Source of the DNA: an uncultured bacterium
GTDB lineage: Bacteria; UBP6; UBA1177
Reading direction: 5' to 3'
Assembly (NCBI GenBank): GCA_905233945.1
Contig: CAJOFY010000003.1
Location: 57,868-121,867, forward strand
DNA: 64,000 nt
The position numbers and the translations under genes are program-made. This document shows positions 53,353 through 56,783 of this stretch, piece after piece (positions within the stretch are counted from its first letter, which is position 1; each line of letters starts with the position of its first letter). The notes beneath the pieces were generated by a model, which saw only the letters and a program-made list of their open reading frames with translations, was not told the origin of the DNA and made no database searches.

Positions 53353-53712
53353 TCTGATCTCCTAAAAAATTAAAAATAAAAAGGCATTTTTTCTGTTTTT
53401 CTACCATTTTTTACATAGCGGAAGCATCGTAGTAAAATTTTAGAAAAAGTCCAGAAAATCAGATGAGTTGGTTTCAGCAGATTGCGTTTTTTGCAGTAAC
53501 CGCGCTTGCTTCGACCAAGATTGGCAACCAATATAACAAATGCAGAATTCTTATGCTGTGATTTTAAAATAAGAAGCACTTTTTATCTTTTAAGCTACAA
53601 TAATTTCTTCTATAATTTTATTTTTAATTTCAAAAATCTTTATTATAATATTTACCGTTCCTTTGTTGATTGCAAACAGAATAAAAACCAATATTTTTGC
53701 GACAAGTAAAAA

Positions 53713-53816
53713 CTGTTGGGGGTAAAAAAGCGACTGCCACGGTCCCTGGCACTGCCGAAACAGGAGAAGGGATACCGTGGCTTACAAGGAGAATGTTATA
53801 AGAAATTTTTTGTAAG
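53713..53816 (+). ncRNA. Candidate structured RNA upstream of the AbiF-like gene
   Basis: Inverted repeats GCCACGGT(53736-53743)/ACCGTGGC(53774-53781) with CCC/GGG extension, and CTTACAA(53781-53787)/TTGTAAG(53810-53816); possible pseudoknot CTGTT(53713-53717)/AACAG(53759-53763). Confidence 0.5.
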
Positions 53817-53829
53817 TCAAGGATAAATT

Positions 53830-54501
53830 ATGGATAAATCAACATTTGCAAACATAGAAAAATCAATTTCACCGGAACGTCTCGCTATCTACAAAACGGA
53901 CGGTGCAAATAACGAGGTGGCGCTTTCGAGGTATATTTACAACATAGAATTGTGTAAGAACCTTTATCCGCTCATAAATATTTTTGAAGTGACATTGCGA
54001 AATTCAATAGACTGTGCTCTTACAGAATTTTTCGATGTGCCGGATTGGAACGATGTAATCCCGCTCATGCAGACAGAACAGATAATGGTCAACGAAGTAA
54101 AAAACAAAATTAAAAAGAAAGGCAAAGAATACTCTCACCCTCGTCTTGTCTCTGAACTTACACTTGGATTCTGGGTCGCTCTCATGGGGAAAAAATACAA
54201 CTCTCAGAAATTCAGATCTTTCATGATAAAAAATATGTTTTATGATTGCCCTTCAGAACAGAAAAATTCCGCTGTATTACAGAAAAATCTTGCTGAAATA
54301 CGGTTTCTGCGAAACAGGATTGCTCACCATGAGCGCATATCGCACTGGAAGGATTTGAATCAAAAACATGATTTGATTCTGGATTTTATCCGTTGGATGT
54401 CGCAGGATATGCACAAAATAGCGGTAAACAATGACACATTCGAAGCAGTTTACAAAAACGGGATCGCTCCCTTTGAACGATTTGTGAAGGAAAAACTGTA
54501 A
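53830..54501 (+). CDS. Abi_2/AbiF-family HEPN protein
   Basis: ALSRYIYNIELCKNLYPLINIFEVTLRNSID; RFLRNRIAHHERI matches R-x4-H HEPN RNase motif. Confidence 0.82.
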   Translation: MDKSTFANIEKSISPERLAIYKTDGANNEVALSRYIYNIELCKNLYPLINIFEVTLRNSIDCALTEFFDVPDWNDVIPLMQTEQIMVNEVKNKIKKKGKEYSHPRLVSELTLGFWVALMGKKYNSQKFRSFMIKNMFYDCPSEQKNSAVLQKNLAEIRFLRNRIAHHERISHWKDLNQKHDLILDFIRWMSQDMHKIAVNNDTFEAVYKNGIAPFERFVKEKL

Positions 54502-55381: not shown

Positions 55382-56524
55382 CTAAAAGATTTCCTTTGCT
55401 GCTTTTTTCATAATTTTTCCAAGCCGACTGTTTACTGTTTCCTGAACTTTTTCAGCTGTTTCTCTCGCAAGAGATTCTTTGATGCCGGCTTTTTTTGCGA
55501 CAGAAAGGATGTCATTCATTGCTGGATTTTTTCCTTCACCGGCGACTGTGGTTGCGTGTTCTCCACCGACAGAGTTCGAATAAGTCAAGTCGTAAGCCGG
55601 AGAGAGGCGCCAGCTGCTGTCATAAACAAAAGAGAAATTGTTGGAATGGTCGTCTCTGTTGTGTGCAAAAACATTGAAACACATGAGAGTGAACATTTTT
55701 TCCACTTCTTCCGCCTGTTTTGTAAGCTGCCAAGTCAAGGCAAGCAGAGAGCAGTAGTCAAGCGACGGGATTCTGTGGGAAGTTTCCAGCAGAGCCGATA
55801 CGGAGGCAGTATGGATTTTTTTCTCTCCAAGCGTGGTTTTCACTCTGTCGAAGCGTTTGCAGCCGAAATATCCCTTGCACACAGCCGATGGAAAGAGTTT
55901 TATTTCGGGAATTTCGATGCCGCAGGCTTTCGCGCAGAGATTGTATTCATATTCCATAAAACCGATATCTGCCGGATCGCCCGACGACGGAAATTTCACG
56001 ATCCAATCTTCGTTATTCAGCCTGATCGTCACTTTCGGCCTCGCTCCGCCGGAAGAGCCGCCCATGGCAAAGAGAGTGTCAAGATCTCCGGAATCTTCAG
56101 TTTGAATGATTTTCCGGCATTCTTCGGCAAGACGGTCAAGGTCGTCGGTTTGTTCCGCGGTTTGCAAGTTGTAAACCGGTTTGTATTCCAAAGCTCCTTT
56201 TCCCGAGGCTCCGACAATGGAGAGACGAGAAAAAGGATCAATTTCTTCCGGACGTTCTCCAGCTTTCCTGAGCATCCGGTCGACAAGCAGTCTGCCCCAG
56301 CCGTCGGGAAGCGAATCGGCAAATATTCCGAAGATTCCATCGAAAGGATCAGTTTTTGCGATTTTTACACCTGCTTGCAGAGGCAGCGAGAAGGGACTGA
56401 TTGAAAATCCGTTTCTAAGCCATTCGTCTGAATATTCAAAAGCGGTCAGCCGTTTCTGGTAGGGAACCATTGTGCCGACTTTTGTCCCGTCTAAAAAAAC
56501 TTCGATCCTATCTGCGGTTTTCAC
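55382..56524 (-). CDS. hipA: HipA-family toxin kinase
   Basis: FADSLPDGWGRLLVDRML, MGGSSGGARPKVTI, FNVFAHNRDDHSNNFSF, LSPAYDLTYS. Confidence 0.93.
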   Translation of the reverse strand: MKTADRIEVFLDGTKVGTMVPYQKRLTAFEYSDEWLRNGFSISPFSLPLQAGVKIAKTDPFDGIFGIFADSLPDGWGRLLVDRMLRKAGERPEEIDPFSRLSIVGASGKGALEYKPVYNLQTAEQTDDLDRLAEECRKIIQTEDSGDLDTLFAMGGSSGGARPKVTIRLNNEDWIVKFPSSGDPADIGFMEYEYNLCAKACGIEIPEIKLFPSAVCKGYFGCKRFDRVKTTLGEKKIHTASVSALLETSHRIPSLDYCSLLALTWQLTKQAEEVEKMFTLMCFNVFAHNRDDHSNNFSFVYDSSWRLSPAYDLTYSNSVGGEHATTVAGEGKNPAMNDILSVAKKAGIKESLARETAEKVQETVNSRLGKIMKKAAKEIF

Positions 56525-56783
56525 GGATAATCTCCTCTATTGATGCAGGTATACGCCGGGTAAACAGGTTCGTGATCTCTTCGTCTTCGCCGACAGTAGA
56601 AACGATTTTAACGAGCGAAAGAAAAGATATTTCGCCGCTGCTTTCAAAGCGTCTGATCGTGGAATAGGGAACGCCGCTGTTCCTGCTTAAATCTTTTATA
56701 GTGATTTTTTTTGCCTTTCTCATTTCTTTAAAGCGTGTCGCGGCATCGACCGCCATTTCCTGCGGAGTTTTCAGCACTATCAT
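56508..56783 (-). CDS. hipB: HipB-like HTH antitoxin
   Basis: MRKAKKITIKDLSRNSGVPYSTIRRFESSGEISFLSLVKI; overlaps hipA by 17 nt. Confidence 0.88.
   Translation of the reverse strand: MIVLKTPQEMAVDAATRFKEMRKAKKITIKDLSRNSGVPYSTIRRFESSGEISFLSLVKIVSTVGEDEEITNLFTRRIPASIEEIIRENRR

Follow-up and report, generated by a model that had tools for sequence, protein, structure and literature searches.

A conserved leader hairpin before a short AbiF-like HEPN gene, a candidate RNA antitoxin outside the Rfam abiF family

The AbiF protein of C. difficile is toxic, and its toxicity requires R202 and H207. A hairpin RNA bound to the protein, RCd22, neutralizes it both in cis and in trans, and the stem structure of this RNA is needed, not the stem sequence (PMC12373285). 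In the complex of PbAbiF with its ncRNA, the RNase is inhibited by a single-stranded bulge of the RNA (PMC12737573). AbiF with its RNA is proposed as the ancestor of Cas13 (PMC12373285, PMC12737573). Rfam knows one AbiF-linked RNA, the abiF RNA (RF03085). PD-T4-5 is a plasmid-borne abortive-infection gene of E. coli found by functional selection (Vassallo et al. 2022); the passages of that report covered here describe it as a single-gene system and 'a distant relative of AbiF/D' and mention neither an antitoxin nor an RNA (PMC9519451).

The locus described here lies in a stretch of 64,000 nt (hereafter the window) of a 2.65-Mb genome (G000) from a rumen genus, and its features are listed in Table 1. 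An earlier note on this DNA had described a 223-aa Abi_2-type protein with RNRIAHHE (HEPN R-x4-H), and the open reading frame, the Pfam match, and the invariant motif were all found. The match to Pfam Abi_2 (PF07751) is marginal (E 4.7e-6; 27.5 bits versus a gathering cut-off of 25.6), and the Abi_2 stretch of 53830-54501 scored 22.3 in a six-frame search. The protein has a single HEPN motif, in which R161, N162, and H166 do not vary across 19 diverse homologues. In PADLOC, the PD-T4-5 model (E 7.9e-14, with the best stretch at positions 6-102 of 309) was closer to the protein than AbiD (3e-5). Searching the PDB with a sequence profile told little about the short family (8VZ6 at E 0.036, versus 6e-45 for the canonical AbiF of the same genome), and a fold search was therefore used. 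The AlphaFold2 model, made from the window protein and 22 homologues, had a pLDDT of 92.3 and a pTM of 0.87. Its sole confident match in the PDB was 8VZ6, the PbAbiF dimer bound to ncRNA (prob 1.00, TM 0.60, E 0.021), which shows an AbiF-like fold, in line with the AbiF-like protein of the earlier note. A HipBA-type toxin-antitoxin pair is located 0.9 kb downstream of the Abi_2 gene, where a HipA-like kinase (Couple_hipA and HipA_C) lies with an HTH gene at 55382-56783 on the minus strand.

Table 1. Features of the leader and the HEPN gene in the window, and related PBECR3-linked loci
Feature	Position	Strand	Basis
TATAAT, -10-like hexamer, candidate promoter of the leader RNA	53644-53649	+	direct reading; ~85 nt 5' of the hairpin
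Conserved leader unit (candidate ncRNA and linker up to the start codon)	about 53693-53828	+	segment common to Abi_2- and PBECR3-linked loci
A-rich leader TAAAAAAG before the hairpin	53723-53730	+	kept in genus copies
Helix H1, 5' arm GCCACGGT	53736-53743	+	compensatory changes; 90% of cells paired in 14 homologues
Helix H2, 5' arm CCC	53744-53746	+	covariation, hand-parsed comparison, folding
Internal loop, 5' side TGGCA (conserved ...CA)	53747-53751	+	homologue comparison
Inner hairpin H3 CTG-CCGAAA-CAG	53752-53763	+	compensatory U-A/C-G change among genus copies
Internal loop, 3' side GAGAA (conserved GAGA)	53764-53768	+	invariant in the genus
Helix H2, 3' arm GGG	53769-53771	+	covariation, folding
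2-nt bulge AT	53772-53773	+	bulge TA or GA in most alphaproteobacterial copies
Helix H1, 3' arm ACCGTGGC	53774-53781	+	covariation, pairing count
TCAAG element	53817-53821	+	no variation in the genus alignment; shares bases with the likely Shine-Dalgarno AAGGA (53819-53823)
Short Abi_2/HEPN protein, 223 aa, predicted RNase toxin	53830-54501	+	Pfam Abi_2, AlphaFold2 model, PDB fold match
HEPN catalytic motif RNRIAHH (R161 ... H166)	54310-54330	+	R161, N162, H166 invariant
PBECR3-linked loci	L145, L146, L147, L154 (G007:C52, G014:C10, G001:C22, G012:C28)		

The leader carries an imperfect hairpin of ~45 nt (53736-53781) with the arrangement GCCACGGT-CCC-TGGCA-CTG-CCGAAA-CAG-GAGAA-GGG-AT-ACCGTGGC. 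Its 50-nt core has a folding energy of -24.6 kcal/mol (z -4.4), and none of 200 shuffles was as stable. The hairpin is found upstream of all 17 genus Abi_2 genes for which upstream sequence is available, and the genus alignment shows one per locus. The upstream elements form two sequence clades in the genus, the second having the form CCGCAGG-CCC-TGRCA-CYGC-...-GCRG-GAGAA-GGA-TC-WCTGCGG. Compensatory changes of the types A-U/G-C, G-C/A-U, U-A/G-U, and U-A/C-G occur in two helices, and the pairs 24/63, 26/61, 28/59, and 38/47 of alignment A2 are altered on both sides. Among 13 genus sequences, 18 cells have double changes, as compared with 6.1 ± 2.6 in shuffles (0 of 500 as high), and the pairing of the proposed helices is 88.5%, versus 31-49% in shifted registers. 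The earlier note had said that a lack of covariation in homologous upstream regions would speak against its reading; covariation is present, and the inverted repeat that it had pointed out, GCCACGGT/ACCGTGGC with CCC/GGG, is confirmed as a stable and conserved fold with compensatory changes.

The other pairings suggested there fared differently. The second inverted repeat, CTTACAA/TTGTAAG, is paired in only 55% of cells in 14 homologues. Full pairing (7/7) is confined to the window and three near relatives, and the fold is not more stable than those of shuffled sequences (z -0.75). The CTGTT/AACAG pseudoknot pairs completely in no more than three copies, all of them close (53% of cells across all copies), and its AACAG shares bases with the inner helix. 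The alignment shows that the second clade of the genus lacks the ACTGCC direct repeat as well as the GCCA/TGGC alternative stem. The candidate RNA had been placed from 53713 on; the structured RNA holds, but this start falls inside the conserved unit, whose extent by homology is about 53693-53828.

The same evidence bears on the reading of the hairpin as a chance inverted repeat or as the intrinsic terminator of an upstream or opposite-strand gene. The minus strand does have a weak terminator at 53751-53735, but no terminator-like site was found on the plus strand, and neither the compensatory changes nor the matches across phyla upstream of Abi_2 genes, on the plus strand, agree with such an origin. 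This reading is refuted by the covariation and by the matches of the covariance models R1 and R2 described below, and its probability is negligible.

An Rfam search of 53640-53860 left RF03085 unmatched even at E ≤ 10, and a search of 13 related loci gave zero RF03085 matches at E ≤ 1. Afu_254 and other weak Rfam matches in 53640-53860 were far below their gathering scores and were dismissed. As a positive control, the same genome contains a canonical AbiF gene (G000:C17:69293-70037; L032) with a true RF03085 RNA upstream (40.9 bits). In a 30-protein tree, the RF03085-linked AbiF proteins stand apart from the short and PD-T4-5-like proteins, across a long branch with full support. Because the model misses the window locus and the proteins lie a long branch apart, the locus has an AbiF-like fold and layout and is not RF03085. 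The earlier note had assigned it to the abiF RNA class and had taken the lack of a covariance-model hit as a sign against that assignment. The AbiF-like HEPN protein and the structured RNA stand, and membership of the RF03085 family, whose model gave no match, does not. The window RNA is a different RNA family in the same positional role, and it probably plays the same functional role as the abiF RNA. The same place before Abi_2 genes, a similar size, a hairpin with an asymmetric internal loop, and a protein fold related to AbiF would also suit a true RF03085 member that has diverged too far for detection. However, the model is silent here and in the 13 relatives, yet strong in the same genome, the loops differ (CCUCUYAAC...AUGC versus CA/GAGA), and the proteins are deeply separated, so that such a diverged member is very improbable. 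In another genome (G005, L031:2169-2275), an Rfam drum RNA (RF02958, 49.5 bits) is located near an abiF RNA and an AbiF remnant.

The occurrence of the RNA beyond the genus was examined with a covariance model, R1, made from 13 genus sequences only. The test set was 165 kb of loci that had been gathered without reference to the RNA, nearly all via protein similarity. R1 gave four matches at E < 0.01, each just upstream of an Abi_2 gene on the same strand: two on Agrobacterium plasmids (L052, E 6e-6; L041, E 1e-5), one in a metagenome-assembled genome outside the phylum of the window (L012, E 0.002), and one in Azospirillum (L045, E 0.007). A second model, R2, was made from the R1 sequences, these four loci, and L044. 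It gave 13 matches at E < 0.01 in 51 other loci (175 kb), three of which are near copies of the training set, and all 13 lie just upstream of the gene on its strand. R2 also matches L176 (3.5e-6), from a different genus of the class of L012. In 61 genomes, R1 gave 24 matches at E < 1e-14, all within the genus: 17 before Abi_2 genes, 4 before PBECR3 genes, 2 before broken Abi_2 genes, and 1 at a contig end. This distribution establishes the linkage of the RNA to the protein. The matches outside the genus at E 0.001-0.03 that were examined (L133, L149, and L134) had no link to Abi_2 and were regarded as chance.

Several parts of the unit recur in the distant copies. The A-rich leader is present in L176 as GGATAAAAAAGG; the last two bases on the 5' side of the internal loop are CA in every Abi_2-linked copy of the genus and in most distant ones; GAGA or GAGAG is found in alphaproteobacterial, gammaproteobacterial, cyanobacterial, and other copies; and TCAAG also precedes the start codon in L041, L051, L052, L159, and L170, several alphaproteobacterial copies among them. 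R2 misses the gammaproteobacterial subtype, CCTAG-T-GTC-ATCA-CCAG...CTGG-GAGAG-GAC...CTAGG, whose like plan was recognized by eye only. In this subtype and in the cyanobacterial and phage copies, all compared by eye, the helix letters change together and the ...CA/GAGA loop is retained in most. The parsing in this wide comparison was manual; the percentage of paired positions obtained from it therefore does not count as an independent statistic, and the wider reach of the CA/GAGA loop depends partly on it. One DNA pattern matched two viral contigs; the match inspected lies inside a long phage ORF, neither contig matches the model, and both were ascribed to chance. Two further DNA patterns gave no matches on viral contigs, and no locus of the L046 type was found among complete E. 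coli genomes.

The neighborhoods of the distant copies vary. In Klebsiella p12CC2_GES-4 (L046:403-1284), an AbiTii (PF18864) gene is directly upstream of the RNA/Abi_2 module. On alphaproteobacterial and Xanthomonas plasmids (L041, L042, L044, L045, L052, and L167), that place is taken by a gene for an HTH protein of ~165 aa (HTH_36/DnaD_N-like by Pfam in L041), a possible third component. Other hairpin types precede phage and prophage Abi_2 genes: the CACCAGGTG type of L090, L092, and L093, the CCCCCGGAGGGCC... architecture of L081, L083, L085, L095, and L096, and those of L099 and L102. All of these hairpins are unlike both RF03085 and the window RNA, and several kinds of RNA seem to accompany the Abi_2 superfamily.

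In four genomes of the genus (G014, G001, G007, and G012), the same ~135-nt leader precedes the gene of a PBECR3-type nuclease (171-172 aa; PF18812 at E 4e-15 and 1e-15 for two of the four) instead of Abi_2. The genus has four intact PBECR3 copies, each of them with this leader. The homology between the Abi_2- and PBECR3-linked loci covers about 53693-53828 of the window and ends at the start codon; for example, L153 and L001 are 84.7% identical over 137 nt up to that codon. The loop of the PBECR3-linked leader has GCA where the Abi_2-linked one has GGCA. Since the PBECR3 loci share parts of their flanks, the link may be one event inherited by descent. No viral or plasmid relatives of the PBECR3 protein were found. 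The link could be a new RNA-toxin pairing or simply a borrowed leader. At two other loci (L124:1501-1700 and L144:1501-1700), an intact RNA stands beside an Abi_2 gene broken after about 20-35 codons, a pattern that fits a costly protein and a harmless RNA. More Abi_2 fragments occur on the contigs of these loci (L014 and L020). A bolder reading of the PBECR3 link is that the leader is a portable RNA antitoxin able to partner RNases of two unrelated folds, HEPN (Abi_2) and BECR-type (PBECR3). The RNA would have stayed in place, with a small loop change (GGCA to GCA), when one toxin gene replaced the other with the junction precisely at the start codon. We consider this doubtful. If it were true, RNA antitoxins could swap toxins, and PD-T4-5 and other 'single-gene' Abi_2 defenses would be RNA-controlled systems whose antidote has been overlooked.

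The reading that we prefer, with a probability of roughly 0.66, is that the locus is a two-part RNA-protein module in which the RNA is an antitoxin for the HEPN RNase (type III-like). It is drawn from the covariation, the cross-phylum R1 and R2 matches, the linkage at all 17 genus loci, the RNA beside broken toxins, the leader before a second predicted RNase, the fold match to 8VZ6, and the precedent of AbiF. The protein would be a HEPN-fold RNase related to AbiF and PD-T4-5, and the leader would present, within its ~135-nt unit, a ~45-nt imperfect hairpin made of an outer helix, a short second helix, the CA/GAGA loop, and an inner hairpin. The hairpin would be cut or transcribed out of the leader and bind the HEPN dimer, and its conserved internal loop would block the RNase site and keep the protein inactive; by analogy with the AbiF systems, it is probably through the CA/GAGA loop that the RNA touches and silences the HEPN site. 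If phage infect the cell or the carrying element is lost, the supply of the short-lived RNA would cease, and the freed RNase would cut cellular RNA and arrest growth (abortive infection). We infer transcription as a separate RNA, binding, toxicity, neutralization, the trigger, and the role in defense. The AT-rich stretch ATTATAAT or a near variant aligns around TATAAT in 7 of 7 clade-1 copies. The consensus promoter scan called no full sigma-70 site at 53644-53649 on the plus strand, and for this reason we only infer a promoter role for the hexamer. Since the plus strand scan found no terminator between the hairpin and the gene, unlike in RCd22, a separate stable RNA would need processing.

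The closeness of the RNA to the start codon and the overlap of TCAAG with the likely Shine-Dalgarno sequence leave room for a cis-regulatory role, and a leader acting in cis only is the strongest rival. It would regulate downstream translation or transcription, for example through autoregulation by the bound protein or a stress response, and would not be a trans antitoxin. It agrees with a hairpin that lies in the 5' leader and is followed by no terminator ahead of the gene, and with a unit that stops right at the start codon and also stands before the unrelated PBECR3 gene, as an expression cassette would. However, the hairpin, at 48-94 nt from the start codon, leaves the Shine-Dalgarno sequence itself uncovered, the AT-rich stem closest to the start lacks conservation, and the conserved loop is tied to one protein family across several phyla. 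Moreover, the well-studied AbiF RNAs bind the protein and act in trans (PMC12373285). A cis-only leader is a possible explanation, but not a probable one.

The proposed ancestry of Cas13 also raises the reading that the hairpin is a crRNA-like scaffold and the protein an RNA-guided RNase. Cas13 has two HEPN domains and a variable guide, whereas the 223-aa protein has one motif; the genus alignment shows a single-copy RNA with conserved flanks, and nothing in it resembles a variable spacer. AbiF, for its part, has been reported to be a toxin with nonspecific RNase activity and an RNA antitoxin (PMC12737573). A guide function is thus extremely unlikely.

The window RNA and its relatives form a second, separately conserved RNA architecture, linked to the large short-protein/PD-T4-5 side of the superfamily and ranging over spirochaete-like rumen bacteria, alphaproteobacteria and gammaproteobacteria, cyanobacteria, and phage or prophage contigs. 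It can now be tested whether 'single-protein' defense genes rely on an RNA that has escaped notice, and whether an RNA antitoxin can move from one toxin to another. The RNA is absent from Rfam 15 and falls within the known AbiF kind of RNA antitoxin; the primary work leading from AbiF to Cas13, by Zilberzwige-Tal et al., which PMC12373285 and PMC12737573 cite, may already include RNAs of this clade.

Compared with known systems, PBECR3 (PF18812), a phage-associated BECR-fold nuclease, shares the RNA leader in four genus genomes, but its protein family is unrelated to Abi_2. We know of no RNA partner of PBECR3. PD-T4-5 is the nearest PADLOC defense model for the window protein and most of its relatives and shares the tree side of the short proteins; it is longer (309 model positions), and PD-T4-5-like genes have a different conserved block upstream. 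This non-coding block, seen on Klebsiella and E. coli plasmids (L164, L174, and L175), comprises a terminator-like hairpin, a second hairpin with TCCGAAGAAG, and TGACG...CGTCA, and the hairpin sequence CGCnCGGGTCCGAAGAAGTCnGnGCC occurs in it in both Klebsiella and E. coli. Because of this conserved hairpin block, a so far unrecognized RNA partner of PD-T4-5 is plausible.

In the type III systems ToxIN, TenpIN, and CptIN, the RNase toxin gene also directly follows an RNA, which here is probably the antidote, and the window locus likewise has a structured RNA directly upstream of a predicted RNase gene. Those systems have tandem RNA repeats and a terminator before the gene, whereas one motif and no terminator were found here (genus alignment and plus strand scan). 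They also differ in having the ToxN fold, as opposed to HEPN, and the window RNA has no conserved pseudoknot.

With the AbiF RNA systems (RCd22/AbiFCd of C. difficile and PbAbiF-AbiFr, 8VZ6), the differences lie in the RNA sequence, loops, and helix plan, with no sequence kinship to RF03085, and in the protein, which has ~220 aa in the window versus ~300 aa and is distant in sequence. RCd22 has two motifs and a terminator after the hairpin, whereas the window RNA has a single motif and no terminator. In common with these systems, the locus has a HEPN protein of the Abi_2 superfamily with R-x4-H and a related fold, encoded by one gene after a conserved ~35-45-nt hairpin with an unpaired internal segment.
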